The notes under the pieces were generated by a model. It saw nothing but the letters and a program-made list of their open reading frames with translations, was not told the DNA's origin and ran no database searches. A stretch of DNA of 64,000 nt from a virus: the IMG/VR virus record IMGVR_UViG_3300047476_000792, positions 26,403 through 90,402 of that record. The stretch is one strand, 5' to 3'. This document shows positions 1-19,911 of the stretch, piece after piece; the stretch's first letter is position 1, and each line of letters begins with the position of its first letter. The translations under genes and the position numbers were made by a program.

Positions 1-1
1 A

Positions 2-940
2 CTCTTTTTAGAGATGGAAAATCAGAACTTTAGAAATATTAAGGTTCTGTTCGTTGGAGATCCGCACCAAATCAATCCAGTGAACCATACTATGGCAATT
101 CCGATGCTAGAGACCCGCCGAGTAGAGTATAATATAGAACATGTAAAACTTGATAAGATTGTTCGACAAGCCGAAGGAAATCCTATTATTGCTCTTTCAC
201 AAAAGGTCATTAAAGATAGTTTTGAATATCTTCCCGGAACTAAAGAAATTCAAGGTGATTCAGGAGTAGTAATTATATCAAATAGTCAAACAAAAATTCT
301 TGCAGATCTTATAAAATATTATTTCGGATCGACTGCATTCGATTATGACCAGAATTTTTGCAAAATAATCGCATGGAGAAATTCTACTGTAGATTACTAT
401 AACAAATTTGTTCGGGCATTTAAATATGGCAATAAAGCCGCAAAGATTGTTCTCGATGAAAAATTAATAGTTGGACGACCTATTTGGTCTGATGATGGAA
501 CGGAAACTCGATTTGTCACTAATGAAGATTTAGTTGTTAAACAGATTGAAGTTAAAGAGAAAACGACTATAGGTGGATATAAATGGAAATATTATGACTG
601 CCTTGTTCAAGGATTTGAGAATGTTGATAATATTCATATTTTACATGAATCCGAAGAAGTTGCCTTTGCAAAGACTCTGAAGAATATGGCAGATAATGCC
701 TCATCAGAAGCAGATATCTCTAAGAGAATTAAGAAATGGAAAGATTTCTATAATTTTAAAGAGAACTTTGCAGAAGTTAAGTATGCATATTCAAATACTA
801 TTCATAATGCACAAGGAAGTACTTATGATAATACATTTGTAATGTATAGTGATATTATGCTTAATAAGAATGAGGAGGAGCGCAAAAGAATATTATATAC
901 TGCAATGACTCGGCCTAAAAAAATGTTATATATCGTTTAA
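2..940 (+). CDS. dda: Dda-like SF1 DNA helicase, C-terminal part (start outside window)
   Basis: The reading frame is open to the first bases of the window, so the gene begins upstream; the ATG at 14 is internal. Visible are helicase superfamily 1 motifs: motif III (VGDPHQINPV, about 15 residues after that ATG), motif V near the end (TIHNAQGSTYDNTF) and motif VI (YTAMTRPKKMLYIV) at the C-terminus. This matches the RecD/Dda group; T4 Dda remodels replication forks and displaces proteins ahead of the polymerase. The Walker A half of the protein is not in the window. Confident as to SF1 helicase, slightly less that it is the Dda orthologue. Confidence 0.85.
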   Translation, partial: LFLEMENQNFRNIKVLFVGDPHQINPVNHTMAIPMLETRRVEYNIEHVKLDKIVRQAEGNPIIALSQKVIKDSFEYLPGTKEIQGDSGVVIISNSQTKILADLIKYYFGSTAFDYDQNFCKIIAWRNSTVDYYNKFVRAFKYGNKAAKIVLDEKLIVGRPIWSDDGTETRFVTNEDLVVKQIEVKEKTTIGGYKWKYYDCLVQGFENVDNIHILHESEEVAFAKTLKNMADNASSEADISKRIKKWKDFYNFKENFAEVKYAYSNTIHNAQGSTYDNTFVMYSDIMLNKNEEERKRILYTAMTRPKKMLYIV

Positions 941-945
941 TTCTG

Positions 946-974
946 TTGAATATATGATAGCCATGTACTAAAAT
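946..974 (+). promoter_or_regulatory. sigma70-like promoter, predicted leaderless
   Basis: TTGAAT (946-951), 17-base spacer, TAAAAT (969-974), then 7 bases to the ATG at 982. Same geometry as the other early promoters in this window; transcription is expected to begin at or one base before the start codon. Confidence 0.6.
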
Positions 975-981
975 AGTGTAT

Positions 982-1149
982 ATGCAAGTTAAAGACTATT
1001 ATATAGGGTTTTTTCGATATGATGACTCTAAGATTTGGAATAAAACAAATCTAAATGAAGATGAGAAAGTACTTAGGGAGTATTTAGAAAACCTCACCTA
1101 TGTCGATAAACTTTCTATTAATATCCGAAAAATACAGTTACCAGAATAA
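982..1149 (+). CDS. small hypothetical protein, 55 aa
   Basis: A 55-codon frame beginning MQVKDYYIGF and ending with TAA at 1147-1149. It fills the gap between the helicase and the next gene and is preceded at the expected distance by a sigma70-like promoter, the main reason to believe it is real. It is rich in charged and aromatic residues, has no signal peptide or membrane segment, and I do not recognise the family. The next gene starts 8 bases downstream, so the two are probably co-transcribed. Confidence 0.55.
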   Translation: MQVKDYYIGFFRYDDSKIWNKTNLNEDEKVLREYLENLTYVDKLSINIRKIQLPE

Positions 1150-1157
1150 TATAATAT

Positions 1158-1799
1158 ATGAAACCACAATTTAACAAAGAATACTGGACTAACCAGTTAA
1201 AAATAGAAGCAGGTGTGTCTCATGTACCTGATGAGGATTTGCATAAACATTTTATTTTGTTTGGGACATTTTCTAATGACGATGGAAATAAAGTATCTGC
1301 AAAAGAATATATTGAGAATCAGCTTAAATATCTTGAAGAACAGTATAATTCTGTAGATGCTAACTTGGAAAGTGATATAGCATCATTAATAGCAGATGTT
1401 CCTGAGAAATTTAAAAGTGAATGGGTAGGAGGAGAATCTACAAGTATAGCAAATACAGAGATTAGGCTGTTACCAACCGTTCAACAAACTATAAACCGTT
1501 CAGATATACACTACTATGACGTTGTTGTGGATGGTAATGCATTTACTGTTGCAATAAACGATCATGGCGATGATTTTAGAATCAAGGACCAGATAAATCA
1601 TGTAAAGCATACAACATTCTTCATTGAAGAACGTAATCCGATGAATATCACAGGTTTTGAGAATATTATTTCTTACTATCAATTTGCGAATATGGTGCAA
1701 TCAGTTGTTAAGAAAAACTCAACAGACCTATCTGCATACGAAAAAATATCACAGAATATAGATACCGTTTTTGATGGTATTAAATTGGAAGGATTTTAA
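1158..1799 (+). CDS. hypothetical protein, 213 aa
   Basis: Soluble acidic protein with no motif I recognise. The N-terminal half looks helical (many E/K/Q around residues 35-75), followed by a more beta-like stretch with DVVVDGNAF and NHGDDFRIKDQ, which could be a small ligand-binding or beta-sheet domain. It lies in a run of short early-region genes and its stop is directly followed by the start of the next gene at 1801, so both are probably expressed together. Function unknown. Confidence 0.7.
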   Translation: MKPQFNKEYWTNQLKIEAGVSHVPDEDLHKHFILFGTFSNDDGNKVSAKEYIENQLKYLEEQYNSVDANLESDIASLIADVPEKFKSEWVGGESTSIANTEIRLLPTVQQTINRSDIHYYDVVVDGNAFTVAINDHGDDFRIKDQINHVKHTTFFIEERNPMNITGFENIISYYQFANMVQSVVKKNSTDLSAYEKISQNIDTVFDGIKLEGF

Positions 1800-1800
1800 T

Positions 1801-2028
1801 ATGATTCAAAGATTTAAAAATAAATTAGCATCTCTCATACTAACATGGGCACTTGATCATAATTTCAGAGTAGATAAATCTGAACCATTATACAAGACAC
1901 ATAACCTATATCAAATAGGTGATGCGAAGTTTGTTGGTCGTTCAGAATACTCTGCAATCGTATTCTCTGTTTTAGAGGGTGATGGAAGCCAACCGAAGTT
2001 TATTGAAGAGGTGGTATTTTATAAATAA
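1801..2028 (+). CDS. hypothetical protein, 75 aa
   Basis: The ATG at 1801 is chosen over an upstream in-frame ATG at 1771 because it lies one base after the previous stop and has GGAAGG about 10 bases before it. The protein (MIQRFKNKLA...) has a basic amphipathic N-terminal helix and then a small beta-rich part ending VVFYK. No family recognised. Confidence 0.6.
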   Translation: MIQRFKNKLASLILTWALDHNFRVDKSEPLYKTHNLYQIGDAKFVGRSEYSAIVFSVLEGDGSQPKFIEEVVFYK

Positions 2029-2065
2029 AACTTGAAAAATAGATATATTTTTATAAGTGTGTTGA

Positions 2066-2860
2066 ATGATTAAATCGTTTCAATTCTTATCTGGATTCGC
2101 TACTGGATTCCCTCATCTTAAAGATCGCAAGTTTCAGTTTAATGATAATCTGAATATTTTATTTGGAAATGTCGGTAGTTGTAAATCGACTATATTGAAA
2201 ACTATGGCTGCATATTGCGGTATCCAAGTAGGAGGATGGAGTACGATCTCCGATCCTCCAAAACTTGCATACGATAAGCCTGAACACTTCCCATTATGTT
2301 ATAGGAATTATTCCCCTGGACAGTGTGATGCCCGCGTTGAGTGGGATGGAACCCCGTCATTTTATAATGATTCAGAGGCAATGGGTAAGAACGATAATAC
2401 ATGGTTTTTTAGCAATGCTAGCCAGTCAGCAGATGGAATCACATCAGAAGCAGAACAGATGGATATTCTTGCATCTAAACCATCATCAGGACAATATAGA
2501 ATTCATAAGATAAACAAGATTATGAAGGTGATTCAATATCCTCCTAATCTTGAAGTGATTCCTCCTAATATTCTTGATCCAAGGATGCGCGAATTGGCAA
2601 AGCTGGAAGTGGCTTATATTCAATCTCTTCCTAGAGATGGAAAAATAACATTGTTATTGGACGAACCAGAAAAGGCATTATCTATTCCTAAACAGATAGA
2701 ATTGTTCGACGTTTTGGTTAAGTTATCGGAACATTTTCAACTTATAGTTGCCACCCACAGTCCTTTTATATTAGAATATAAAAAGGTTAATATCCTAGAT
2801 GTCAGCCCTGGTTATGTAAAGGACTGCCGAAACTTGATAAAAGGACTTTCTAAAAAGTAA
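2066..2860 (+). CDS. ABC/SMC-type ATPase
   Basis: A 264-residue ATPase of the AAA_21/ABC class. Visible: Walker A region near residues 32-42 (FGNVGSCKST), Walker B with catalytic Glu (TLLLDEPEKAL) and the H-loop (IVATHSPFIL) near the C-terminus. The last G of the usual GxxxxGK is Cys here, which is unusual. There is no long coiled coil, so it is a compact form, as in many phage and OLD-like ATPases. It is followed after 9 bases by a zinc peptidase gene, which suggests the two act together. Role unknown; ATP-driven remodelling or a counter-defence role are guesses. Confidence 0.75.
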   Translation: MIKSFQFLSGFATGFPHLKDRKFQFNDNLNILFGNVGSCKSTILKTMAAYCGIQVGGWSTISDPPKLAYDKPEHFPLCYRNYSPGQCDARVEWDGTPSFYNDSEAMGKNDNTWFFSNASQSADGITSEAEQMDILASKPSSGQYRIHKINKIMKVIQYPPNLEVIPPNILDPRMRELAKLEVAYIQSLPRDGKITLLLDEPEKALSIPKQIELFDVLVKLSEHFQLIVATHSPFILEYKKVNILDVSPGYVKDCRNLIKGLSKK

Positions 2861-2869
2861 GTAGGTTCT

Positions 2870-3478
2870 ATGAAAATGGAAACTTTTATCGGAAACGCAA
2901 TAAGCAGAATGATTTCCGAAGGAGTATCAGTTGAGTTTACTAAAAGGAAGCGAGTAGGAAAATTCGGTTATAATTTTTTTTATGATGGAACCCATAAAGA
3001 TTATGGACCTATTCCGCTTTTCAAGATTCATTTTTATAATGACTCATTAGAGGAGAATTATGGAATATTCGTCCACGAATATTCCCATTTTTTACAATGG
3101 CAAGAAAAGATTCCTCTATGGAAAATAGCACAGAAATCCAATAAGAGATTTGATGATTGGTTACAACAAAAGACCAATGAAATAGATATAGAGGATATTC
3201 GAAATATCCAGAGGCTTGAATTAGATTGTGATAAAAGAGCTATTCAATGTATAAAAGACAACAATCTCCTTATTGATATACCGTCATATATAAAGGAATC
3301 CAATGGATACATTATGTCACATAATATAATGGTTAAATCTAGGACATTCTTCGTATCAGCATCATATAGTGATCCAGAAGTTGTACAATATATTCCTGAA
3401 GAACACTTAACTGAGGATCAATTAGACTACTGCCCTGTAGAGTTTTCGGAGGCATTTCTTAAAAAGTCTCTAGAATAA
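2870..3478 (+). CDS. HExxH zinc metallopeptidase-like protein (gluzincin type)
   Basis: Contains VHEYSHFLQ with the zinc-binding HExxH pattern (H69, E70, H73) and, about 45 residues later, LELDCDKRA, where Glu117 fits the third zinc ligand of the gluzincin pattern (compare EL-x-AD in HEYGHH-type peptidases and the ImmA/IrrE M78 group). No signal peptide, so it should act in the cytoplasm. ATG codons at 2870 and 2876 are both possible starts. It sits directly downstream of an ABC-type ATPase. The substrate is unknown; cleavage of a host or phage regulator is inference. Confidence 0.6.
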   Translation: MKMETFIGNAISRMISEGVSVEFTKRKRVGKFGYNFFYDGTHKDYGPIPLFKIHFYNDSLEENYGIFVHEYSHFLQWQEKIPLWKIAQKSNKRFDDWLQQKTNEIDIEDIRNIQRLELDCDKRAIQCIKDNNLLIDIPSYIKESNGYIMSHNIMVKSRTFFVSASYSDPEVVQYIPEEHLTEDQLDYCPVEFSEAFLKKSLE

Positions 3479-3479
3479 G

Positions 3480-3959
3480 TTAATAAAGTTTTTTAGAAAG
3501 ATTTGAGAACATATCTCCTAAATTATTATCATGAAGAAATTCTTTAAGCTTTCTGGGATCGATAGATTCAGAATAATCGGATAATATTAATTCATCAGCA
3601 ATACATCCATCCAAGCCATCTATGGAAGATTTAGAAGGAACCTTAATATTATTTTTTATAAAAAACAATTTACCCGTGAGTTTCTTTAGCTTCTGGCATA
3701 TTTTATTAATATGCTTATCCAATTTATCCCGGTCATAATATTTTAACAATTCATGAGAATCGGATAAAACATGGGAGTGGTAGAATCGAACAGAAGAATC
3801 TTTTATACGGTTATTAAATTCGTGTATAAAAAAATACATGATTATTTTTTTAACATCAGGAGTGAATTTATTCAATAAATGGTAATCATAGAGAAGATTT
3901 ACCACATCTGTTTCTATATTAAAGAGAACTTCATCAATAGATATTAAGGTATATGTCAT
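3480..3959 (-). CDS. hypothetical protein, 159 aa, last gene of late cassette
   Basis: Mostly helical, Lys/Ile-rich protein (MTYTLISIDEV...). No motif recognised. It follows the terminase-like gene with an 11-base gap and has no late hexamer of its own, so it is probably transcribed from the promoter of that gene. It does not contain the nuclease domain missing from its upstream neighbour. It converges with the peptidase gene on the other strand, with a single base between the two stop codons. Confidence 0.65.
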   Translation of the reverse strand: MTYTLISIDEVLFNIETDVVNLLYDYHLLNKFTPDVKKIIMYFFIHEFNNRIKDSSVRFYHSHVLSDSHELLKYYDRDKLDKHINKICQKLKKLTGKLFFIKNNIKVPSKSSIDGLDGCIADELILSDYSESIDPRKLKEFLHDNNLGDMFSNLSKKLY

Positions 3960-3970
3960 ACCCTAATATA

Positions 3971-4714
3971 CTACTCACCACAGTTGAATTCATACTTAAA
4001 AATCTCTTCTTTGTCCGCACCTAAACCTTGTAACATTCGCTCTTTCCATTTTTCGTCACGATCAGGAACTTGATTCCAAAAGAATTTTTCAACAGTATAA
4101 TTGTAATGGTATTTACCTTCTACGGAATTTTCATACAACCGTAAAATTCCGTAATCATTATCATCCATTTTAGGATTTGGACAACTTGCTATTACAATAG
4201 AGGAATTAGAAGCCTTAGAAGAAATGAGAGGCATTATTGCGCTTAAAACATCTTTATGTGATATATATGATGCATAGTCATAATCCATTAGATATATGCG
4301 ATTCAGCGAACGACCACATACTCCGCGTGTATAATATTCGAAAAATATTATCTCTGAACCATTTAAAAATGCTATTCTATTTTTAGTTTTATGGCATAAA
4401 ATTTCTTTTAAGTTTGCAATGTCTATGATTCTTTCTATATTATAATCTGATATTGCTTCTTTAGTGGACACTATACATATACTACAGCCAGAAAAATTAA
4501 GTGCATGATAAATCGCATCAATCAATATCATGGTGGTTGTTCCGACTTGTCTGCTTGCTACCAGTATATTTATTTTATTAGAATTCCAACTAGTTAGTAT
4601 CTCTTTTTGACGTGTGTATAGTTTTATAGGTGCCGATTCTTCATAAAAAGTAGAAACCCTTATATTTTCTTCTGCCCAACGAATTACATCATGATATACT
4701 ATTTCTTCTGACAT
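3971..4714 (-). CDS. terminase-large-subunit-like ATPase domain, probably catalytically dead
   Basis: The 247 residues follow the ATPase half of T4 gp17-type terminases: adenine-binding YTRQKEIL, a Walker A-like ASRQVGTTT (53-61), a Walker B-like YLMDYDYA (141-148), a coupling motif IVIASCPNP (173-181) and the linker W-x-QVPDRDEKW. The invariant Walker A Lys is Thr, and the catalytic Glu after the Walker B Asp is Tyr. The protein stops where the nuclease domain would begin and lacks the gp17 N-terminal extension. It has a late hexamer 5 bases before its ATG. A full terminase presumably lies elsewhere. A packaging accessory or decoy role is inference. Confidence 0.75.
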   Translation of the reverse strand: MSEEIVYHDVIRWAEENIRVSTFYEESAPIKLYTRQKEILTSWNSNKINILVASRQVGTTTMILIDAIYHALNFSGCSICIVSTKEAISDYNIERIIDIANLKEILCHKTKNRIAFLNGSEIIFFEYYTRGVCGRSLNRIYLMDYDYASYISHKDVLSAIMPLISSKASNSSIVIASCPNPKMDDNDYGILRLYENSVEGKYHYNYTVEKFFWNQVPDRDEKWKERMLQGLGADKEEIFKYEFNCGE

Positions 4715-4719
4715 ATGGG

Positions 4720-4725
4720 TATTTA
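4720..4725 (-). promoter_or_regulatory. late promoter hexamer TAAATA
   Basis: On the minus strand TAAATA, 5 bases before the ATG of the terminase-like gene. Its first three bases are the TAA stop codon (4723-4725) of the upstream nuclease gene. Confidence 0.7.
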
Positions 4726-5190
4726 TTTTATATCTTTGAAGATCTCTTGGGATATTTTCTTATATTTTTCCCGCAAATCCTTTGGACAATTACCAATACG
4801 GAAGTGGATTATACCATTAAAGAAACTATCATCGAATAAGACTCCGTGGCGCATTTGTTCCAAGGTTTCCATATACGACATCGTCCATTTAGTTTCACAA
4901 CAATGTAAAATTGTACGTTTAAATATGTCTGGACCGTATTTTTTAAGAATCTCTTTCAAATCGTTTGAACTACCATAGTATTTTTTCCAATCAGATTCTT
5001 TCATTACTCGACGACTACGAGTTTTACCTTTAAGGGGTTTTAACTTAGTATTACTCCAGAATATTTTCTTTCCTAAGTATTTTGTCGGTTTATCTTTAGG
5101 ATAATCCTCGGGAATATTTACTATCTCTATAAGATATACAAATCCTAAATAATCATCTATATTTTCTGGAATATTTTCCCATTCGTTCAT
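4723..5190 (-). CDS. SegE-like GIY-YIG nuclease
   Basis: A 155-residue protein matching the GIY-YIG pattern: GFVYLIEI near the start, KYLGKK as the YIG-like strand, then a basic stretch (KGKTRSRRV), YYGSSNDL, and a helix with MSYMETLEQ that can supply the metal-binding Glu. This is the arrangement in phage SegE-like homing endonucleases. Here it is a late gene in a packed cassette beside a terminase-like ATPase, so besides homing it could supply a DNA-cutting function to that neighbour; this is inference. Its TAA stop forms part of the next late promoter. Confidence 0.7.
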   Translation of the reverse strand: MNEWENIPENIDDYLGFVYLIEIVNIPEDYPKDKPTKYLGKKIFWSNTKLKPLKGKTRSRRVMKESDWKKYYGSSNDLKEILKKYGPDIFKRTILHCCETKWTMSYMETLEQMRHGVLFDDSFFNGIIHFRIGNCPKDLREKYKKISQEIFKDIK

Positions 5191-5208
5191 AAACTTTATT
5201 TATGAACG
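5184..5208. repeat. perfect 10-bp inverted repeat around a late promoter and start codon
   Basis: CGTTCATAAA (5184-5193) and TTTATGAACG (5199-5208) with a 5-base loop. On the minus strand it spans the upstream stop codon, the TAAATA hexamer and the ATG at 5190, so it could act as an operator or an mRNA hairpin. Confidence 0.55.
5197..5202 (-). promoter_or_regulatory. late promoter hexamer TAAATA
   Basis: Minus-strand TAAATA, 6 bases before the ATG at 5190. The TAA at 5200-5202 is also the stop codon of the upstream 206-residue gene. Confidence 0.7.
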
Positions 5209-5820
5209 TTTTTTGCGTTTTCTACGTCTTTTTCCTATAATATAAGGAACCCGTGCATCGGATGTATCATAGAGACCGTCATTTCCCAGAACAGATGCAA
5301 CAGATATATCTTCTTTTATGTTCTTCTTTTTCTTAGGTTTCCTCTGAGGTTTAGCTGGATTGTCGAATTCCGCACCTATTGCGGCAAATAGTTGATCATA
5401 ATTGGCATCCCGTGAAAACTTCTCAGGAACTACAGAAATGTCATATAACATTTCTAAATCCCCCAATGCATTTTTCTGTTTATCGGTTAAACTTTGTGAT
5501 GCAGTATATTTTAGTTGTGGTGTATATTGTGTCACATCTTTATTAATCTTAATCCAACCCCTATTAAGGAGATAACCAATCGCTAGAATCATTTCAGAAG
5601 AATGATCTGTCTTGTCTGATATATTCTTTTCATAGAAATCTGTAGTATAATTAACTATGCTTTTTATTATTCTTATTGCATCAGAGCCGTGCTGTTGCCA
5701 GCGAACAGGCCGAACAATGCCAGAAGGACTTACCCAAAATCCATAAGGGCATTCATCAGGAAGTTCAGCAAACGACTCTGCAAGTATTTTTCTTATGAAT
5801 CTATCGAAATTTTCTGTCAT
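5200..5820 (-). CDS. hypothetical late protein, 206 aa, basic C-terminus
   Basis: The start at 5820 (MTENFDRFIRKILAES) is preferred over an upstream in-frame ATG at 5853 because a TAAATA hexamer lies 7 bases before it. The N-terminus belongs to a short motif shared with the late proteins starting at 57144 and 59721. The middle is globular; the C-terminus is very basic (GKRRRKRKKRS) and could bind nucleic acid. First gene of the late cassette with the GIY-YIG and terminase-like genes. Function unknown. Confidence 0.65.
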   Translation of the reverse strand: MTENFDRFIRKILAESFAELPDECPYGFWVSPSGIVRPVRWQQHGSDAIRIIKSIVNYTTDFYEKNISDKTDHSSEMILAIGYLLNRGWIKINKDVTQYTPQLKYTASQSLTDKQKNALGDLEMLYDISVVPEKFSRDANYDQLFAAIGAEFDNPAKPQRKPKKKKNIKEDISVASVLGNDGLYDTSDARVPYIIGKRRRKRKKRS

Positions 5821-5827
5821 ACTATAA

Positions 5828-5833
5828 TATTTA
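5828..5833 (-). promoter_or_regulatory. late promoter hexamer TAAATA
   Basis: Minus-strand AAGTAAATA, hexamer 7 bases before the ATG at 5820. It lies directly beside the -35 box of the divergent uvsY early promoter. Confidence 0.7.
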
Positions 5834-5834
5834 C

Positions 5835-5863
5835 TTGAAATCATATATAACATATGATATTTT
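5835..5863 (+). promoter_or_regulatory. sigma70-like promoter of uvsY operon, predicted leaderless
   Basis: TTGAAA (5835-5840), 17-base spacer, TATTTT (5858-5863), exactly 6 bases, then the uvsY ATG at 5870. Confidence 0.65.
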
Positions 5864-5869
5864 TGATAA

Positions 5870-6271
5870 ATGAAAAGTGCAGCAGAAATTCAAGAAGAAT
5901 TTGTAAAAGAATTGGAGATGGATACACAGATGGACTCTACCAATGTGATGGATAAAATGCTATCATCTGCGAATATTAAACAAAAATGGCTTATACGAAA
6001 AATACGAGCACAGAGAAGATTATATGATTTGGTAGCGGTAAAGGACGGATTTGTAAATGATAAACTTAATAATGACAATCCTTTGAAATTGTCAAAGGCG
6101 GTTATGGCAGCAAAAGCAGGAAGCGATCCTACTTATAGAGAGTTACAAAAGGAGATCCAAGATCAAGAACTTCTTGTAGAATATTTAGATGGAACAGTTA
6201 ATAAAGTCTTAACTCAGATGAGTTATGAATTTAGAGCGATTGTTGATTTGATGAAGTTGGAACAACTGTAA
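5870..6271 (+). CDS. uvsY: UvsY-like recombination mediator
   Basis: A 133-residue protein, close to T4 UvsY (137). The order of features agrees with UvsY: an early DST segment, a basic helix with KQKWLIRKIRAQRRL, and a C-terminal helical part (LVEYLDGTVNKVL ... FRAIVDLMKL) resembling the hexamer-forming end of UvsY. UvsY loads the UvsX recombinase onto gp32-coated single strands; uvsX and gp32 are both in this window. It heads an early operon that continues to uvsW. Sequence identity to T4 is low, so the call rests on length, pattern and context. Confidence 0.75.
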   Translation: MKSAAEIQEEFVKELEMDTQMDSTNVMDKMLSSANIKQKWLIRKIRAQRRLYDLVAVKDGFVNDKLNNDNPLKLSKAVMAAKAGSDPTYRELQKEIQDQELLVEYLDGTVNKVLTQMSYEFRAIVDLMKLEQL

Positions 6272-6272
6272 T

Positions 6273-6845
6273 ATGAGTGGTAGATGTCGGCCTAATATAA
6301 TTTCTCCATCTCCACCGAAAAGGAGATATAGCAACACCAATGATTCGTATTATATAGATGTTGTCAGGAATATGTATAATCACCCACCATCACTAAGTGC
6401 TTGTTATAATACTGAAAATTTGATAGTATCTGGTATATGCGGAGTAGATCAGCTTCTTAATCACTACGAATCTTCTAGTAATTCATCTAATAGATTTAAT
6501 ATTTATTACCGTAAATGTGAATATTGTTCCACGATAAACAATATTTCCTATGAAATCGATAATTGTGAATCGTGTGGAGCACAGTTTGGATTGCTCGATT
6601 TTCTTGATAATGCACGAATAGCGGAATTGTTACAACCTCACTACACCTCACAAGATACTTCATCATATAAAAGACTTGCACTTGAAATAATAGAAAATGC
6701 ATTCAAGAAGCATATTGATTTTCATAAGAATGTTGATGATATTGTTAATTGTTTAATTGGTCTGCCTGAAGAGAAGATTGCTTCTCTTATAGGATATTTA
6801 ATAGGTTTTATTAAGCCTGATAAGATGTTCAAAACTAATGAGTGA
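6273..6845 (+). CDS. hypothetical protein with Cys4 zinc-ribbon, 190 aa
   Basis: Starts one base after the uvsY stop. A four-cysteine zinc-ribbon-like segment (CEYC ... CESCGAQ, about residues 76-96) sits between a disordered N-terminus rich in Ser, Pro and Asn and a helical C-terminal domain. Its TGA overlaps the GTG start of uvsW by four bases, implying translational coupling. The position inside a recombination operon suggests a DNA- or protein-binding accessory role, but I do not recognise the family. Confidence 0.65.
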   Translation: MSGRCRPNIISPSPPKRRYSNTNDSYYIDVVRNMYNHPPSLSACYNTENLIVSGICGVDQLLNHYESSSNSSNRFNIYYRKCEYCSTINNISYEIDNCESCGAQFGLLDFLDNARIAELLQPHYTSQDTSSYKRLALEIIENAFKKHIDFHKNVDDIVNCLIGLPEEKIASLIGYLIGFIKPDKMFKTNE

Positions 6846-8269
6846 CTGAAAAGATAAAGGTTGATGTAAAAAATAAGAATAGCACATTACAGTGCTCTCC
6901 AACTATTTTAAAACTTATTAGAGAAAAATTCTCTATAAAAAACCCTAACTATCAATCGCGCAAGTTTGCCGATAGAATATATGCAATAACCCCTTCTGGC
7001 GCATTCCAGACGGGGATTTGGTATGAAATTGAAGGATTTATTCGTGGTTTAAAAATCCCTGTCGAAGTTGAGATATCCGATGAATTCAGGAAACAGTTTA
7101 CACCTTCTACTGGCATAACCGAAATATCAAAAATTCCAGGGTTTACTTATTATGATTACCAAGAAGATACTTTAAAAGAGTTTTTAACCACTGGAAGGGG
7201 TATATCTATACTCGCTACAGGGGCAGGAAAATCGGTTTTAATTGGAGGACTGTGTAAAACTTTCCTAGATCATCGACCTGATTATAAAATATTAATCAGT
7301 GTCCCTAATACGTATCTATTAAATCAGTTATATGATTCGTTCATATATGAATTCGGAATTGCCTCTGTTACTAAATGGGGTGATAAAAATGTTCCAGATC
7401 TTTCCAAGAATATCATCATTGCCAATAATCAGATACTGGTATCTGATATAAAGGCAACACTTTCAATTGTTCAAGATTTTGATGTGGTGGTGGTGGATGA
7501 GGTTCATCGTATAGGCGATAAAAAAACTCAAATAGGAAAAGTCATACATAATATTCAGACACCGCATAAGTTTGGATTAACGGGAACGCTTCCAGATGAC
7601 ATCATGACGATATGGAATGTTCTAGGAAAGATCGGACCTATAGTATATGAGAAAAATTCTTATGATATTCGTAAGAAGGGAGCAATCACTGATATCGAGG
7701 TAAATGTCATCATCTGTAATCACCAAACAAAACCGGTGTTTTCACGAATAACTAACGAACCAACGGAGAAATATAATCAGGAATTAGATTATATTATGAA
7801 TCTTTCTTCGCGAAATGAAGTTGTTAAAAAAATAGTTCATAGCCTCTCGGGTAATATACTCGTAATGGTTGATCGTATTGATTACGGCAATACCTTGCTA
7901 GATATTCTTAAAAAAGAAGGAAAGAAAGTGTTCTTCATACAAGGTGACACTCCTATAGAAGAGCGTAATAGAATAACAAATCTCATGGAAAATGAGACTG
8001 GTATTATCTGTATCGCAATGAGTACCATATTCTCCACAGGTGTATCGGTCAAGAATCTACATTATGCCGTGTTTACATATATAGGAAAATCTACAGTGAA
8101 AATAGTACAATCAATCGGACGAACAGTTCGAAAACACGAAACAAAAAATAAGGCTATTATCTTCGATATAGCCGATAATTTACCATATTCCTTCAAACAT
8201 CTTAAAGAGAGATTAGGAATATATAAAGATCAAAGAATAGAATATAAAACAACAACAATAAAAATATGA
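6842..8269 (+). CDS. uvsW: UvsW-like SF2 DNA helicase
   Basis: A 475-residue superfamily 2 helicase (T4 UvsW has 503). Walker A ATGAGKS at 125-131, DEVH box at 219-222, motif III LTGTLP shortly after, and motif VI QSIGRTVRKH near the C-terminus. UvsW unwinds R-loops and Holliday junctions and promotes the switch from origin- to recombination-dependent replication. The start is GTG at 6842, overlapping the previous TGA; its own TGA overlaps the next ATG (ATGA), so three genes are coupled. Confidence 0.9.
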   Translation: MTEKIKVDVKNKNSTLQCSPTILKLIREKFSIKNPNYQSRKFADRIYAITPSGAFQTGIWYEIEGFIRGLKIPVEVEISDEFRKQFTPSTGITEISKIPGFTYYDYQEDTLKEFLTTGRGISILATGAGKSVLIGGLCKTFLDHRPDYKILISVPNTYLLNQLYDSFIYEFGIASVTKWGDKNVPDLSKNIIIANNQILVSDIKATLSIVQDFDVVVVDEVHRIGDKKTQIGKVIHNIQTPHKFGLTGTLPDDIMTIWNVLGKIGPIVYEKNSYDIRKKGAITDIEVNVIICNHQTKPVFSRITNEPTEKYNQELDYIMNLSSRNEVVKKIVHSLSGNILVMVDRIDYGNTLLDILKKEGKKVFFIQGDTPIEERNRITNLMENETGIICIAMSTIFSTGVSVKNLHYAVFTYIGKSTVKIVQSIGRTVRKHETKNKAIIFDIADNLPYSFKHLKERLGIYKDQRIEYKTTTIKI

Positions 8270-8838
8270 ACAACAATAATTCAACAGAATGTTTCTATAT
8301 TACAGGAATGTGCCCAGTATCATCGCTAAATTATTCGGATGATAATTGGACGATCACGACATCTGGTAAAAAATATGAATATGATAATCCTATTTCAGAA
8401 GAACCCCCTGAAAAAGAGTTAAGTAAAAGTAAACTTCCACAATCCTTTGATGCACGGGATTGGGTTAATGAATGGCGAGAAACATTAAAAACTGCTCCTA
8501 CAATATCCTGGGATAATGATACTATGTTGACATGGTTTAGTAATGCATTAATGGCTGGATTTGATGAAGCTCATAGACGAGAACAAGGCAAAGAAAAATA
8601 TGTTTATATTCTGCGGTCATCACAACATTCTGGAGTTATTGCGACATATTCTGAACTACCTTCGAAAGAGGTGTGTGATAGAGATTATTCTTTATACCTG
8701 GGAAAAGATTTGTCATGTATCGGAGGCTCAGATATACCAATCGCAGGTCAAGGATCAGATTGGAACTGTGTTTTAGAAAAATGGAAATTGGATTCTACAA
8801 ATAGAATACATGAAAATGTGAAGATTGAGTACAAATAA
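8266..8838 (+). CDS. hypothetical protein, 190 aa
   Basis: Overlaps the uvsW stop by four bases (ATGA). The N-terminal 70 residues are acidic and Asn/Ser-rich, probably flexible; a helical segment follows (DWVNEWRETL ... WFSNALMAGFDEAHRR). The C-terminal part has several Cys (CDRDY, CIGGSD, NCVLE). No family recognised. Placed between uvsW and the late sigma factor gene. Confidence 0.65.
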   Translation: MNNNNSTECFYITGMCPVSSLNYSDDNWTITTSGKKYEYDNPISEEPPEKELSKSKLPQSFDARDWVNEWRETLKTAPTISWDNDTMLTWFSNALMAGFDEAHRREQGKEKYVYILRSSQHSGVIATYSELPSKEVCDRDYSLYLGKDLSCIGGSDIPIAGQGSDWNCVLEKWKLDSTNRIHENVKIEYK

Positions 8839-8841
8839 TTT

Positions 8842-9576
8842 ATGTGGGACGAAATTGAAGAAGATGGAATAATATTAGATGAGCGTGAGGAACTTGAAAT
8901 AGTTCTTGATGATATTCCTAAAAAACGTACTCGCCGTAAGAAGAATGAAGGTTCTCCTAACGAAGATTATGTTAATAAAGATGAGATGTGGCAGGAGTTG
9001 TACAATTATTACAAATCTTTAGGATCTTCGTATGATTGGGATCTACAAAAGATTAATGATAGACATAGCTTTCCTAAAATATCAGATAGATTAACTACTA
9101 TTATAAATGATATTGCAACAAAAATGGGATATCGTGCTAATTTTTGTAGGTATTCTTGGTTGGATGAGATGATTGGCGATGCGATATTAAAAATGATCAA
9201 AGCTGTTCGAGATTGCTCATTTAAATGTTATACTACAGCAGAAGTTATTGCAGTTGATAATTTCAACAACACTGTGACCTTTTATGATAAAAAGGGACAA
9301 GTTCAGAATAAACCATTCGAAGATACTGATACTTATTTCAAGGGAGATGATCATAAGGATTATATAAAGTTCAAAGCCAATCCTTTTGGATATTTTTCAC
9401 GAATAACGAGTCATTCTTATCTTAATCGAATAAAGAAAGAGAAGGATGCAGAGAAGACCAAGCGGGCGTTTCAAGAAGAAACGTGGGAACGTCTATATTC
9501 TAATGAGAATTTTAGAAATGTCCGTAGGCAGAAAATCATTGATTCTGATGAGAATGAGGCTATATTTGATGAATGA
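8842..9576 (+). CDS. 55: gp55-like late-transcription sigma factor
   Basis: 244 residues. The C-terminal half matches T4 gp55: SWLDEMIGDAILKMIKAV corresponds to the core-binding sigma region 2, and NPFGYFSRITSHSYLNRIKKEK to the helix that recognises the late promoter. gp55 directs host polymerase to TATAAATA-type promoters, and such hexamers precede many genes here. Unlike T4 gp55 (185 aa) there is an insertion of about 50 residues between those segments (from CYTTAEV to DYIKFKAN) and a charged N-terminal extension. The usual C-terminal clamp-binding SLDFLY is not obvious; the protein ends EAIFDE. Confidence 0.85.
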   Translation: MWDEIEEDGIILDEREELEIVLDDIPKKRTRRKKNEGSPNEDYVNKDEMWQELYNYYKSLGSSYDWDLQKINDRHSFPKISDRLTTIINDIATKMGYRANFCRYSWLDEMIGDAILKMIKAVRDCSFKCYTTAEVIAVDNFNNTVTFYDKKGQVQNKPFEDTDTYFKGDDHKDYIKFKANPFGYFSRITSHSYLNRIKKEKDAEKTKRAFQEETWERLYSNENFRNVRRQKIIDSDENEAIFDE

Positions 9577-9860
9577 GAAAATGGTTAGCAGATGAGATAT
9601 TCTCTTGGTATTATGGCGATACAAAGCTATGCGAGGAAAGACTGAACGTCTTTACCAGACATCTTCCTTCGTGGTATTTAAGATTCTTAGTGTGGAGTTT
9701 ACGAGATATTAGGTTTGATCCTAATTACGGATTTTTATATTATTGGTCCAAGAATGTCAAACAAACGTATCCTGAATTGCTCCCTCATGAAATTGTTGGG
9801 GTTGAACCGCTGAGTGGCCCAGTAGGTATTGTATTTGCCCTTAAATATTATTATGAATAA
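9573..9860 (+). CDS. hypothetical protein, 95 aa
   Basis: ATGA overlap with gp55 and an 8-base overlap with gp47, so it is translated as part of the same operon. Trp/Tyr-rich (SWYYGD, PSWYLRFLVWSLRDI), with a compact, probably helical fold. I do not recognise it. The conserved setting between gp55 and gp47 suggests an early protein, possibly modulating either neighbour. Confidence 0.65.
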   Translation: MRKWLADEIFSWYYGDTKLCEERLNVFTRHLPSWYLRFLVWSLRDIRFDPNYGFLYYWSKNVKQTYPELLPHEIVGVEPLSGPVGIVFALKYYYE

Positions 9861-10848
9861 GAAAGTTATGGTCCTTGGCGACCTACACTTAGGCGTTTCT
9901 AAATCTGATGCAAAGTTTTTTGATACTGCATTGAAATATGCAGAATGGGTTAAAAAACTTTGCAATGAACAAGGTATCACTCAAATAATTCATTTAGGTG
10001 ATATTTTTCATCATCAGTATGTTCTTTGTGTCGGAACATTAAATGCTGCATATAAATTCTTTGATATTCTTAAAGAATTTGATATTCATATAGTCCTAGG
10101 GAATCACGATGTTCCAACTAAGCACTCTGTGGAAAACCATTCTCTTAAACTTTTATCAGAGTGGCCTAATATAACAGTTCATGATAAAGTTACGACTATT
10201 GATGATATAACTTTTTGTGGATGGGGGACGAAGCTTGAAGATATTCCTGAGAAGCAAAAGATTATATTTGGACACTTTGATATTAAAGGGTTTGATATGA
10301 GCGCAAGTAAAGTAGCAGAACATGGATTTACTGCGAGTGAACTGATGGAACGTTGTGAAATGTTGATGTCGGGGCATTATCACAAACCCCAGAGAAGATT
10401 TTATAAAAATAAATTGCTCACTTATGCAGGTTCTTGTTACCAATTGAATTGGGGAGAATCTGGTGAAGAAAAATATGCCTATGTTTTAGACACCGAAACT
10501 CTTTCATATGAGGCGATTCCCAATAATATATCCCCAAGATTTGAATATATTAGAAGCGAAAAAGACTACCATAAAATAGCAAATAATTTTGTTGCTATCG
10601 AAGTTTCTATGGAGGAACATGCAGAAAAGGTGATGCAGATGTTAGCCAATAATGCATTAGATGTCAAGACTATCAATAGAACGACTAAAGTAATAGAAGT
10701 GGGTGATTTGAAAAGTGTCGAAGAATTTAAAGGAGTTAGCATATCAGATATCATACAAGAATATACTGAGTTAATTGAAGATGTTACGGAAGAAGAGAAA
10801 ATTTACCTTGCAAAGAAAGCCAATCAACTCTATAATGAGTGTATATGA
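9853..10848 (+). CDS. 47: gp47-like SbcD/Mre11 recombination nuclease subunit
   Basis: 331 residues from the ATG at 9853 (T4 gp47 has 339). Metallophosphoesterase motifs are clear: GDLHLG (9-14), HLGDIFHHQY, LGNHDVP and MSGHYHKP, which bind the two catalytic metals. It forms the Mre11-Rad50-like complex with gp46 that resects DNA ends for recombination-dependent replication. In T4 genes 47 and 46 are neighbours; here gp46 lies about 15 kb downstream (25835), the space being filled by CoA and sugar genes. Its stop overlaps the next start (ATGA). Confidence 0.92.
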   Translation: MNKKVMVLGDLHLGVSKSDAKFFDTALKYAEWVKKLCNEQGITQIIHLGDIFHHQYVLCVGTLNAAYKFFDILKEFDIHIVLGNHDVPTKHSVENHSLKLLSEWPNITVHDKVTTIDDITFCGWGTKLEDIPEKQKIIFGHFDIKGFDMSASKVAEHGFTASELMERCEMLMSGHYHKPQRRFYKNKLLTYAGSCYQLNWGESGEEKYAYVLDTETLSYEAIPNNISPRFEYIRSEKDYHKIANNFVAIEVSMEEHAEKVMQMLANNALDVKTINRTTKVIEVGDLKSVEEFKGVSISDIIQEYTELIEDVTEEEKIYLAKKANQLYNECI

Positions 10849-11162
10849 GTGAAGAGAGGGATTTTTCTAAAGTTACACGATATGATTGGGTTACTAGAAC
10901 TTGGTTCGAAGAAACCTATGAATGTATTGGTGAAGATACTACTGGTAACTATGTCTTATTCAAAGATTATAAAGATCTTCTAGATGCCAAAACGCCTAAG
11001 AGACAAGCATCTTTCTCTGAATTAAAAGATCTAATTAAAAAAGAGATTTTTGAAAAGAAAGATAGTATAAATTATGGGGTAGCTGTTCATAGATATGATG
11101 AAGCAAGGCAGTTACAAAAAGCACTTTATAAAATTGAACAATTAACAGATGGAACTATATGA
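10845..11162 (+). CDS. hypothetical protein, 105 aa
   Basis: Start at 10845 overlaps the gp47 stop as ATGA, better than an upstream GTG at 10839. Charged, alpha/beta-looking protein (MSEERDFSKVTRYDWVTRTW...). Coupled to the next gene by another ATGA overlap. Function unknown. Confidence 0.65.
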   Translation: MSEERDFSKVTRYDWVTRTWFEETYECIGEDTTGNYVLFKDYKDLLDAKTPKRQASFSELKDLIKKEIFEKKDSINYGVAVHRYDEARQLQKALYKIEQLTDGTI

Positions 11163-11731
11163 GTCTAGAAGGAAGTATACCAAAAATATATAGATGGTTT
11201 CCTATAAATCTTGAAAAATTTAGAGGATTGCCGATCAACACACATCCAGGTGCATTTGGTGTTGCACGTAAATATAACTTTCATGAAGGGGTTGATCTTT
11301 ATGGGAATCCGGGCGATTGGGTATTTGCGATTAGAGATGGCGAAGTAATTTCGAATGCACGGTTTACGGGCGCATCAGAAGGTCATCCTTGGTGGCTAGA
11401 AACCGATGCATTACTCATACGCGATGATGAAGGTTACTATGTGTATGGAGAGCTTAAATCTGATTTAAAAGCCGGAGATAAAGTCACATATGGTCAGAAA
11501 ATAGGAGAGCTTACACCTGTATTGACCCCTAATAAATTCCGTCCAGATATTCCGGGACACGGCGTTACCATGCTTCATTTAGAACGATGGGACAATTCTT
11601 ACGATCCTAATACCGGTTGGTCCGCATGGCAAACCCGTGAATCCCGTCCTAGTTATTTAAAAGACCCCACTGCTGAACTTGTTCGTATTTTAAACCATCG
11701 AAAAGTTCCGATCAAATTTTTAACAATGTAA
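11159..11731 (+). CDS. M23 (LytM)-like peptidase domain, possibly inactive
   Basis: 190 residues. The fold signature of M23 metallopeptidases is visible: FHEGVDLYG supplies the HxxxD zinc ligands (H42, D46), followed by WVFAIRDGEVI, a typical beta-strand turn, GDKVTYGQKIGEL, and MLHLERW at 138-144 in place of the usual HLHFE. The first His of that HxH, normally catalytic, is Met138; the second (H140) remains, and another His (H134) is near. There is no signal peptide. M23 enzymes cut peptidoglycan cross-links; without the catalytic His this may be a structural or regulatory relative. Located with early genes, not beside the endolysin. Confidence 0.7.
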   Translation: MSLEGSIPKIYRWFPINLEKFRGLPINTHPGAFGVARKYNFHEGVDLYGNPGDWVFAIRDGEVISNARFTGASEGHPWWLETDALLIRDDEGYYVYGELKSDLKAGDKVTYGQKIGELTPVLTPNKFRPDIPGHGVTMLHLERWDNSYDPNTGWSAWQTRESRPSYLKDPTAELVRILNHRKVPIKFLTM

Positions 11732-11734
11732 TCT

Positions 11735-12421
11735 ATGAACACAGAACAAATTCCCGTTTTTCAGCCCCCGGAAACCAAAATACCAATCGAGTACAGATGG
11801 TGGAGTTGGAATGAGACTAATACTAAATGGTGCCAGAGTTGTTGGAAGGCTGATAATATACTTGATGCTATTAAAAAGTTTTATACTCCTAATGCATGTG
11901 AGATATCGCATTATCATTCTAAATTGATAAAGTATGATGGTGAAACATATGAAGATATTCTAACCATTCCGAAAAATGACTTAAAAAGTTATACAGAATA
12001 CCGATTGACGGAGGAATTGACGAGACGAAAAAATATCAGAGATGCGGAAGAATTGAAGAAATTTACTAAAACATGTGATAAATGTAAGACACATAATCAT
12101 CTATCTGAATGGTTTAAATTAAGAACATATACTTTCACAGATGATGTATATACTCAGAACTATACTATAAACGATGATTTTGCTGTAGTATGTCCGAGTT
12201 GCTCCCTTCACCATTGGGCTAAAAAAGAGTATAAATATGACTCCCCTTCTGAAGAAACCCAAAGAGATTTAGATTTATATAAATTCTGTAAGGATTTTGA
12301 AAGGTTTGGTAAATTTAAGCAAGAATATCACAGGCATGATAAGAATGGGTGGGAATTTAAATATACTATTAAAAATGACACGGGTAAAGAAATCCAAGTA
12401 AAAGATCCTTTTAAAAAATGA
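11735..12421 (+). CDS. hypothetical protein with Cys zinc-binding pairs, 228 aa
   Basis: Contains WCQSCW near residue 33, and further on TCDKCKTHNH and VVCPSCSLHHW, which can form a split Cys4 zinc ribbon. The rest is charged and helical. Overlaps coaB by four bases (ATGA). No function can be assigned; a nucleic-acid or protein-binding role is likely only by the presence of the ribbon. Confidence 0.65.
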   Translation: MNTEQIPVFQPPETKIPIEYRWWSWNETNTKWCQSCWKADNILDAIKKFYTPNACEISHYHSKLIKYDGETYEDILTIPKNDLKSYTEYRLTEELTRRKNIRDAEELKKFTKTCDKCKTHNHLSEWFKLRTYTFTDDVYTQNYTINDDFAVVCPSCSLHHWAKKEYKYDSPSEETQRDLDLYKFCKDFERFGKFKQEYHRHDKNGWEFKYTIKNDTGKEIQVKDPFKK

Positions 12422-13083
12422 AAATATTAATAACAAGTGGCGGAACAGATGTTCCCATAGACAGTGTGAGAAAAATCACCAATATGTCAACTGGACGTTT
12501 TGGTTCAGAAATTGCTGAAGAGTTTGATAAGTTGGACCATGATGTGATTTTTTGGCACAGTAAGGGAAGTTCTATTCCACAAGGATTGCAGACGGCGGTA
12601 TACAATGGTCGCATTGATTCTAGTATAATGGCGTACAGAGATTATTATGCATACTTAGATATCATCGGAATCGCTGGAATGACCGCACCTGATATCATTA
12701 TCAGTGCGGCGGCTGTTTCAGATTATATTCTCGATAAAACCGAAGGAAAGATTTCAAGTTCAGAAGATGAGTTGGTTATTCGTCTTAAAAAAGCCAAGAA
12801 GGTTCTACCAGAATTTAGGAAAGTATCGCCAAAGTCCATGGTGGTAGGTTTCAAGTTGTTGGTAAGCCCGACCTATCAAGAAGTATATAACGCCGTTCAG
12901 AAGGTTTTAAATAATGGTTCGGATTATGTTGTTTATAATGATCTGACAGAAATTCGTAATGGAAATTCATCTCGTCTCGTATTTAATAAAAATATGAACT
13001 TTCGAGAAGTTAAAGATGCAAAAGAACTAGTAGATTATATTATAAATGAGTACACAAATTCAGAAAATAGCAATGGGTTGTAA
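12418..13083 (+). CDS. coaB: phosphopantothenoylcysteine synthetase (CoaB domain)
   Basis: 221 residues corresponding to the C-terminal half of bacterial CoaBC (Dfp). ILITSGGTDVPIDSVRKITN at the N-terminus and MSTGRFG match the nucleotide-binding and dimer strands; LKKAKKV matches the flexible Lys-rich lid; VVGFKL and DYVVYNDL match later strands. The enzyme joins cysteine to 4'-phosphopantothenate with a nucleotide triphosphate, in coenzyme A synthesis. The partner decarboxylase is encoded one gene downstream. Both are separate genes, in the reverse order to the host fusion. Confidence 0.85.
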   Translation: MKILITSGGTDVPIDSVRKITNMSTGRFGSEIAEEFDKLDHDVIFWHSKGSSIPQGLQTAVYNGRIDSSIMAYRDYYAYLDIIGIAGMTAPDIIISAAAVSDYILDKTEGKISSSEDELVIRLKKAKKVLPEFRKVSPKSMVVGFKLLVSPTYQEVYNAVQKVLNNGSDYVVYNDLTEIRNGNSSRLVFNKNMNFREVKDAKELVDYIINEYTNSENSNGL

Positions 13084-13333
13084 ACCCGATCCATATAAAT
13101 TCACAATTTTAGAGAGATATGTGATAAACACACATACTATAATTTTAGCTCGATATGATGGATGTCTATCTTTTGGAGGTAATAAGCTTATGTTGTGTAG
13201 GGGTATTATTCCGTCTGATATTGAAACCCTTGATCCGCATTTTATAGAGGGACACCATGTTATAGCACGTTTTGAACCCACGCCAGGAGGAATGAGATTA
13301 GCGCGAATTTGTGCAGCTTGTTTATTATCATGA
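13046..13333 (+). CDS. hypothetical protein between coaB and coaC, 95 aa
   Basis: Overlaps the end of coaB by 38 bases if the ATG at 13046 is used; an in-frame ATG at 13073 (MGCKPDPYKF) would reduce this to 11 bases. The protein looks beta-rich (YVINTHTIILARYDGCLSFGGNKL) with a GMRLARICAACL end. Its TGA overlaps the coaC start. I do not recognise it; the position suggests a link to the CoA genes but may only reflect operon packing. Confidence 0.55.
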   Translation: MSTQIQKIAMGCKPDPYKFTILERYVINTHTIILARYDGCLSFGGNKLMLCRGIIPSDIETLDPHFIEGHHVIARFEPTPGGMRLARICAACLLS

Positions 13334-13890
13334 ATATATTACATGGCCTGACAGGTAGTGTGGCATCTACCATCGTATGTAAATTCCAAAAGCACTATGA
13401 AGAGGATTCTGTTAAATTTGTATTAACAGAATCCTCTAAAAAGTTCAACCCGCCATATTATATGGTATCGTCCTTTGATCTAAAATTAGAAGGACAATTA
13501 AGATATGGACAGTTTGATGACGATGATGAATGGGTTATGTATGAAAAAGGGAGTAAGGTTCTTCATATTGAACTAGTAAAATGGGCAGATGTTTTTGTTA
13601 TCGCACCATGTTCGGCAAACACTATTGCAAAGATTGCTAATGGTGTTTGTGATAATTTACTGACATGTGTTGCCCGTGCATGGGATTTCGAAAAGAAATT
13701 CATTATTGCACCTTCGATGAATGTGAAAATGTGGGAGCATCCGATAACTAAGGAACATATAGATAAGATAAAATCTTGGGGAATAACCGTTGTTGATCCT
13801 ATTGAAAAGAAATTATTTTGTGGCGATTATGGAATGGGTGCAATGGCGAATATAGAAGATATTGTTAAACAGATTAAAAATGAGGAATAA
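13330..13890 (+). CDS. coaC: phosphopantothenoylcysteine decarboxylase (CoaC flavoprotein)
   Basis: 186 residues from the ATG at 13330. All HFCD-flavoprotein marks are present: LHGLTGSVA (FMN binding), LHIELVKWAD with the catalytic His, APCSANTIAKIANG (the PASANT motif), APSMNVKMW (PxMNxxMW) and FCGDYGMGAMA with the active-site Cys. It decarboxylates 4'-phosphopantothenoylcysteine to the precursor of phosphopantetheine, after CoaB. Catalytic residues are intact, so activity is expected. A perfect 15-bp inverted repeat lies inside the gene. Confidence 0.88.
   Translation: MNILHGLTGSVASTIVCKFQKHYEEDSVKFVLTESSKKFNPPYYMVSSFDLKLEGQLRYGQFDDDDEWVMYEKGSKVLHIELVKWADVFVIAPCSANTIAKIANGVCDNLLTCVARAWDFEKKFIIAPSMNVKMWEHPITKEHIDKIKSWGITVVDPIEKKLFCGDYGMGAMANIEDIVKQIKNEE
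13401..13437. repeat. perfect 15-bp inverted repeat inside coaC
   Basis: AGAGGATTCTGTTAA (13401-13415), 7-base loop, TTAACAGAATCCTCT (13423-13437). There is no T-run after it. It lies about 70 bases into the coaC frame, so as RNA it would form a stable hairpin early in the message. Confidence 0.7.
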
Positions 13891-14176
13891 ACAATTACTA
13901 CAGGAATGGGTAGAAAAATCAGCATCAGCAGATTATAAAAATGCACAAAGATTGCGATTAACTACTAAAAATAGATGGGAAGAAGGAATAGATCACCATC
14001 CTATATCGGAAAGACTTATGAAATTTCTATGTGATCATGATTTTATAGATTATGATGATTATTTTTGTTGGAAGATAGGCGGTGATGGTGATAATGGCGA
14101 AACCTTAATGTATCAGATGGATGCATTTTTTGAATTGTTAGAGTATGAAAAAGCTATCAACACAGCAAGGTCATAA
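13880..14176 (+). CDS. hypothetical protein, 98 aa
   Basis: Start ATG 13880 lies inside the last codons of coaC. Helical, with an acidic DYDDYF middle and His/Cys residues (LCDHDF, YFCWK). No family recognised. Overlaps the next gene by about 30 bases. Confidence 0.6.
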   Translation: MRNKQLLQEWVEKSASADYKNAQRLRLTTKNRWEEGIDHHPISERLMKFLCDHDFIDYDDYFCWKIGGDGDNGETLMYQMDAFFELLEYEKAINTARS

Positions 14177-14573
14177 AGGTGGACAAGACTACCGTCCAAA
14201 CTATTACTGTCCAACATGTCATGCATATAATAGGATTCCCCATGAAAAGGGGTGTGTGGATGTGAAAGTGAGTATATGTGGAACCGCTCGACTCCCCTCT
14301 AAAAATGCAGATAAAAAAGTATGGCAAGATTTCTATGAGAAGTTTGTATTAAAAAACGATATAAAATATATACAGACCTTGAAAAAATCAAAAAAATCTA
14401 AATCATATAGGGAATCTAGTAGGTACGAGATTCTTCAAGAAGATGAAAGATACTTGAAAATGTCTTTGGACGAATTACTTAAAAGAGAAAAATTCTTGAA
14501 AATGACTAAGCAAACTGATAAATTAAAGAAATGTCAGAAATTCTTAACCGCTTTAAAGAGAAAACAGCATTAG
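14145..14573 (+). CDS. hypothetical protein with CxxC zinc site, 142 aa
   Basis: YYCPTCHAYNRIPHEKGC near the N-terminus can bind one zinc (C, C, H, C). The remainder is strongly basic and helical (KKSKKSKSYRESSRY ... KREKFLKMTKQTDKLKKCQKFL), suggesting nucleic-acid or ribosome contact. Overlaps the following glycosyltransferase gene by 43 bases. Function unknown. Confidence 0.6.
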   Translation: MKKLSTQQGHKGGQDYRPNYYCPTCHAYNRIPHEKGCVDVKVSICGTARLPSKNADKKVWQDFYEKFVLKNDIKYIQTLKKSKKSKSYRESSRYEILQEDERYLKMSLDELLKREKFLKMTKQTDKLKKCQKFLTALKRKQH

Positions 14574-15376: not shown

Positions 15377-15404
15377 TTGCATATTACTCTTAGCTGCTTA
15401 TATT
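15377..15404 (+). promoter_or_regulatory. sigma70-like promoter, predicted leaderless
   Basis: TTGCAT (15377-15382), 16-base spacer, TATATT (15399-15404), exactly 6 bases, then ATG at 15411. Confidence 0.6.
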
Positions 15405-15410
15405 AAGTGT

Positions 15411-16580: not shown

Positions 16581-16975
16581 AAAATCGAATATCTAAGTTC
16601 AGAGGGTGGGATATATCCCAAAAAGAGTGGATAAATCCTGCGAGGATAGAGATATATTCTTCCGATGGCATCCTTCAGGATTTATACGATCCCGAAGGAA
16701 CAGATGTAATAATACAACAATTTACAGGGCTTACTGATTTGACTAATAAGGAAATTTTTGAGGGAGATATATGTAATCTCTACATATATAGTCGGCGTAT
16801 AAGCGGTGTTCGACCTGTAATAGAATTGGGTGATATTAGGTTTCATAAACACGGATTTTGTTTTTTCAGCAAAGAAACCGATGGTGAATATATTGGTTCC
16901 CTTATTAGTGGTGTTCGTGACGGTTTTGAAATAGTGGGTAATATCCTAGAAAATCCAGAATTATTAAAGAAATGA
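16577..16975 (+). CDS. YopX-family protein
   Basis: 132 residues with the YopX signature: ISKFRGWDISQKEWI at the start, QQFTGLTDLTNKEIFEGDIC in the middle and FEIVGNILENPELL at the end. YopX proteins are common in phages and prophages, form oligomers, and have no established function. Coupled by ATGA overlaps to the AAA ATPase before it and the glycosyltransferase after it. Confidence 0.85.
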   Translation: MKNRISKFRGWDISQKEWINPARIEIYSSDGILQDLYDPEGTDVIIQQFTGLTDLTNKEIFEGDICNLYIYSRRISGVRPVIELGDIRFHKHGFCFFSKETDGEYIGSLISGVRDGFEIVGNILENPELLKK

Positions 16976-18091: not shown

Positions 18092-18101
18092 TATAGAAAA
18101 T

Positions 18102-19907: not shown

Positions 19908-19911
19908 TTTT

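Follow-up and report, generated by a model that had tools for sequence, protein, structure and literature searches.

Beside uvsY in a T4-like myovirus, a 247-residue protein retains the ATPase fold of the large terminase gp17 and has lost its catalytic residues. Sequence comparison indicates that this pseudo-ATPase is real and that both it and the gene block around it are conserved; its function we infer. The best explanation, to which we assign a probability of about 0.4, is that the protein is a binding mimic of the gp17 ATPase domain that paces the packaging motor.

The stretch analyzed here (the window, 64,000 bases) runs from base 26403 to base 90402 of a virus record. That record is 90,402 bases long and represents an incomplete fragment of the phage genome. 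The record encodes UvsX, UvsY, UvsW-like and replicative helicases, and a family B DNA polymerase, together with SbcC-like (gp46-type) and baseplate/tail proteins. A search of all 90,402 bp found no portal family, and gp23 is present only as a 33-residue piece (Pfam Gp23 match above the cut-off), so the head module, a frequent location of gp17, does not seem to lie within the record. No full gp17 and no gp17 nuclease domain was found in this incomplete 90,402-bp fragment. The gp23 piece presumably overlaps Gol, the region of T4 gp23 that Lit senses, and makes a second virion gene of which this genome holds a partial copy. A Shine-Dalgarno match precedes the start codon of about 1 of the 88 tested genes and the bases upstream of start codons are A-rich, a pattern that we take to fit a Bacteroidota-type host. 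Megablast of window positions 1-20000 against phage records returned no matches. Contig L002 is identical to the window (100% over 12,714 bases) and does not count as independent evidence.

The ATPase-like gene belongs to a unit of four tightly packed minus-strand genes, separated by gaps of 9, 8, and 11 bp, between uvsY and a gene for a 202-aa protein (Table 1). The unit thus includes the 159-aa gene, one gene more than the trio described in the initial annotation, and lies on the same strand as the tail/baseplate and endolysin-like genes. The 202-aa neighbor, a possible metallopeptidase, contains an HExxH motif (HEYSH) that is retained in two related contigs, L010 and L011. The late promoter previously assigned to the ATPase-like gene is not supported: the window contains 13 copies of TATAAATA, where 15.6 would be expected, and none of these copies is at this gene. 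The element NATAAATA is found at -13/-14 before genes of both strands; given this distribution and the near absence of Shine-Dalgarno matches, it looks like a general start context.

Table 1. Coordinates of the four-gene block and its flanking genes in the window
Feature	Position	Strand	Basis or remark
uvsY	5870-6271	+	
Gene 1, basic-tail protein, 206 aa	5200..5820	-	Start favored at 5820, within an ORF that opens at 5853
Capsid-targeting-like leader MTENFDRFIRKILAE with LxE site (prohead-protease-type motif)	5776..5820	-	
Gene 2, SegE-type GIY-YIG nuclease, 155 aa	4723..5190	-	Pfam PF19835, 2.2e-28
Gene 3, predicted gp17 ATPase-domain-only pseudoenzyme, 247 aa	3971..4714	-	Homology, fold, selection, clade
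Walker A relic SRQVGTTT in gene 3	4532..4555	-	Alignment to T4 SRQLGKTT
Walker B relic RIYLMDY in gene 3	4280..4300	-	Alignment to T4 MIYIDEC
Gene 4, 159-aa protein	3480..3959	-	Conserved in L010 and L011, weakly in L019
202-aa neighbor gene	2870-3478	+	

The assignment of the 247-residue protein to the gp17 ATPase fold, proposed from the sequence at the outset, is borne out by sequence, profile, and predicted-structure matches. As a single sequence it matches T4 gp17 (PDB 2o0h) with an E value of 2.8e-6 in phmmer, and a family profile raises the match to 1.7e-28. It also matches phrog_5989 and phrog_2, both 'terminase large subunit' (3e-10 and 2e-8, respectively), and tblastn with the protein produced gp17-type matches in 506 phage records, with one gp17-like place per record. 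The AlphaFold2 model (pLDDT 83) aligns with 2o0j in Foldseek at a TM score of 0.81, and a VIA superposition places model residues 8-247 on T4 residues 115-356 (Z 22.3, rmsd 2.1 Å). The C terminus corresponds to T4 residue 356, where the ATPase domain of T4 gp17 ends, which agrees with the earlier statement that the protein stops where the nuclease would start. Compared with T4 gp17 (PDB 2o0h/3cpe), the protein shares the fold over T4 115-356, the Q motif, the Arg and Gln of the SRQ sequence, and motif III, but lacks T4 residues 1-114 and the C-terminal RNase H-fold nuclease, and its locus lies beside uvsY.

The differences extend to the catalytic motifs. The replacement of the Walker A lysine by threonine is confirmed by alignment (Lys166 to Thr59; SRQVGTTT against SRQLGKTT in T4). 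The tyrosine previously read in place of the catalytic glutamate reflects a register error: from the conserved Gly134, T4 GNSFAMIYIDEC aligns without gaps to GRSLNRIYLMDY, which pairs Tyr145 with T4 Cys257 and Asp144 with the catalytic Glu256. The same alignment pairs the Walker B Asp255 with Met143. A lambda-type shifted Walker A lysine does not rescue the site, as this position is Ala53 in the window and Ser in L010. Some phage gp17 proteins (G012 and LR756508) have isoleucine for the Walker A lysine, but carry a lysine at the front of the loop. Even conservative Asp/Glu exchanges at the T4 catalytic sites abolish packaging (PMC9958956). Because the catalytic residues are changed and neither a canonical nor a shifted lysine is present, the window protein is predicted to be unable to hydrolyze ATP.

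Relatives of this locus are few. Two further viral contigs, both diverged, have the block next to uvsY, so that the gene co-occurrence anticipated for related phages is seen in three (the window, L010, and L011). L010 (7 kb) carries the same four genes, and its ATPase-like protein, 50% identical to that of the window, shares the Met-Asp pair and has leucine for the Walker A lysine. In L011 (8.6 kb), the GIY-YIG (74% identity), ATPase-like (28%), and 159-aa (36%) genes are arranged as in the window; the L011 ATPase-like protein has an intact P-loop, CRQSGKTT, and a DE pair. All three ATPase-like proteins form one clade (support 100/98), for which the simplest reading, not a proof, is an intact ancestor followed by loss of the catalytic residues. 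No closer relatives were present in the bacterial and archaeal genome contigs searched, and further viral scans added no carriers of the ATPase-like gene, leaving three phages in total.

Between the window and L010, the ATPase-like gene shows a dN of 0.42 and a dS of about 2.6, which is near saturation, for a dN/dS of about 0.16; dN for the neighboring genes ranges from 0.07 to 0.55. Since this divergence bears the mark of purifying selection, the predicted pseudo-ATPase is a maintained protein and not debris. Indeed, the intact frame of 247 codons, the selection against change relative to L010, and the synteny in two more phages sustain the initial view that it is not a random fragment. A pseudogene is rejected on the same frame, synteny, and dN/dS.

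The gene directly upstream, 8 bp from the ATPase-like gene, is a GIY-YIG nuclease as originally described (Pfam SegE_GIY-YIG, 2.2e-28). It has the domain and active-site residues of SegE-type nucleases (PF19835, phrog_447), and GxVY, YxG, E108, and N125 are conserved in 47 or 48 of 48 homologs. We fetched 57 GIY-YIG loci; in 13 of them, the window counted, uvsY lies no more than 3 kb away. The gene may be stably settled at this site, which would set it apart from a free-standing homing gene that varies between close relatives. Of these 13 loci, just three (the window, L010, and L011) carry the ATPase-like gene. In the remaining ten contigs, several of them short, GIY-YIG lies beside uvsY with no ATPase-like gene in the fetched DNA. 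Further, in L019 the GIY-YIG gene is followed by a weak 159-like gene, and the 100-kb record of this contig (G006) has a full gp17 in a 589-codon frame and no ATPase-only copy. The nuclease gene therefore does not depend on the ATPase copy; it probably settled in the locus earlier and independently.

The gene before GIY-YIG does encode the strongly basic tail noted earlier, with 18 Lys/Arg against 5 Asp/Glu in its last 50 residues. Its start is probably at 5820 rather than 5853, judging from the L010 homolog, which begins at the equivalent methionine. The N terminus reads MTENFDRFIRKILAES, and the L011 version, 51 aa long, reads MTKKFDNFIKENMG...DDARTPKILG...KRKKFKKKRHK. In T4, internal proteins use a short capsid-targeting sequence at the N terminus, and their N-terminal peptides are removed by the prohead protease (PMC9958956). 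The basic-tail protein has a leader-like N terminus that resembles the short leader, ending in LxE, of T4 IPI-IPIII and Alt, but no homology to the T4 internal proteins was detected and searches returned no phage matches. Four other proteins of the record, each encoded on the minus strand, show a similar leader pattern, and beside uvsY in L018, L023, and L026 there is a comparable leader combined with a basic end. By analogy, the product is probably an internal head protein.

The 159-aa protein is conserved in L010 (57% identity), in L011, and weakly in L019. Its AlphaFold2 model is unreliable (pLDDT 44). It was rejected as the nuclease half of gp17 (hhalign probability 0.1%), and comparison with the gp16 small terminase gave an hhalign probability of 0.

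ATPase-only relatives of gp17 also occur elsewhere. The 484-kb huge phage LR756508.1 has such an ORF near position 185 kb (L122 1363-2229) besides a full 540-aa gp17. In an unrelated phage contig, L003, a 260-aa gp17-ATPase-like ORF (6190-6972) lies just upstream of genes that by eye are gp59-like and gp32-like, and a second ORF of this type (12020-12469, 149 aa) lacks the P-loop. Like the window protein, the LR756508.1 (288 aa) and L003 (260 aa) products consist of a gp17 ATPase domain with no nuclease, but they largely keep the catalytic residues (KSRQLGITT/FDE and CRQSGKTT/DD, respectively). A single clade of all ATPase-only proteins is neither supported nor rejected (AU p 0.33 and 0.20). 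In Campylobacter phage CJLB-10 the gp17 ATPase part is likewise encoded apart; in contrast to the window protein, this gp17 is broken inside Walker B, has intein-like ends and an intact motif, and is probably a working motor in pieces. Its parts (L117 2833-3549 and L121 1174-2502) lie about 24 kb apart, which suggests a split intein. On a 236-kb contig (L106, G005:C1:130500-135900), gp17 appears to be interrupted by several intein-like insertions, including two that map to Walker B and to the junction between ATPase and nuclease. Separately, L004 (2255-3289, +) encodes a 344-aa protein with an HNH-like N terminus joined to an RNA-ligase-like part. The literature searched, whose coverage is incomplete, describes no terminase paralog of the window type.

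How might an apparently dead ATPase domain serve the phage? In the reading that we favor, a nuclease-less gp17-type ATPase domain would have inserted beside uvsY, between the resident SegE-type GIY-YIG gene and the 159-aa gene. The L011 lineage would then have retained the canonical P-loop and DE pair, and the window/L010 lineage would have lost the Walker A lysine, the Walker B aspartate, and the catalytic glutamate while keeping fold and frame under selection. The protein would act by binding and not by hydrolysis, occupying surfaces used by gp17 on neighboring gp17 subunits, the portal, the small terminase, or DNA, and the packaging motor could in this way be held back, paced, or redirected. 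T4 motors accept inactive subunits and still package, with less DNA engagement, lower speed, and more pauses (PMC8589836); a dead subunit could therefore act in a graded manner and govern packaging. Against this, the protein has neither T4 residues 1-114 nor the nuclease domain, parts on which entry into a motor ring may depend. Co-expression with the phage's own gp17 is assumed, since that gp17 is not seen in the record.

The main rival, which we consider unlikely, is an immune decoy: the dead, nuclease-less copy would bind terminase sensors of the Avs1-3 type without triggering them and shield the real gp17. Avs sensors recognize the large terminase (PMC12931631), the ATPase-like model superposes on an Avs3-bound terminase (8dgc_E, Z 17.9), the gene is fast-evolving, and the gp23 piece gives the same genome another partial virion-gene copy. 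Any gp17 homolog would, however, be expected to match terminases in fold, and L011 retains catalytic residues that would be superfluous for a decoy. As for the fast divergence (28% identity between the window and L011), a decoy or some other partner would account for it just as well.

Three other explanations are less likely than the binding mimic or the decoy. The ATPase-like protein could guide or anchor the GIY-YIG nuclease in a two-part DNA-cutting device, as an active motor in L011 and a passive DNA clamp in the window. The two genes are 4-8 bp apart in all three phages and the nuclease active site is conserved, but the initial proposal of such a unit is not supported by the ten contigs with GIY-YIG beside uvsY and no ATPase gene in the fetched DNA, and window-L010 identities of 87% for GIY-YIG against 50% for the ATPase-like protein do not suggest tight co-evolution; we regard the device as quite improbable. 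Still harder to defend is a homing by-product, in which the GIY-YIG gene moved a gp17 piece here that is itself functionless. Homing endonuclease genes are frequent near terminases (PMC10448857), cyanophage S-H9-1 has a 'putative endonuclease' gene about 570 bp upstream of gp17, and intein-like insertions do target gp17 (in G005 and CJLB-10), yet the intact frame, the purifying selection, and the same order in three diverged phages point the other way, and selection already disfavors this account. A split terminase, with the nuclease half encoded elsewhere and assembled in trans into a real motor, has a precedent in CJLB-10 and would suit the canonical P-loops of the L011 and L003 proteins. 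It is very improbable for the window and L010, where the catalytic residues are gone; moreover, no gp17 nuclease domain was found in the fragmentary record and the 159-aa neighbor does not match one. An intron-interrupted terminase was rejected, with no Rfam match in window positions 1-12000 and no nuclease half.

The usual picture of a packaging motor is a ring in which every TerL subunit is active and the same as the next. If the binding mimic is real, the conservation of a TerL ATPase domain without activity would parallel, in nature, the experiments in which T4 motors are doped with inactive subunits. A wider idea is that phages keep a dead terminase ATPase copy to serve as decoy or governor, whether toward the motor or toward terminase-sensing immunity, and that such copies arose more than once; it is tentative and in our judgment rather doubtful. 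The L011 protein offers an apparently intact sister for comparison with the window and L010 proteins, which are predicted to be dead, and such a pseudo-subunit would make it possible to ask directly whether phages use it to adjust packaging or to conceal their terminase from immune sensors.
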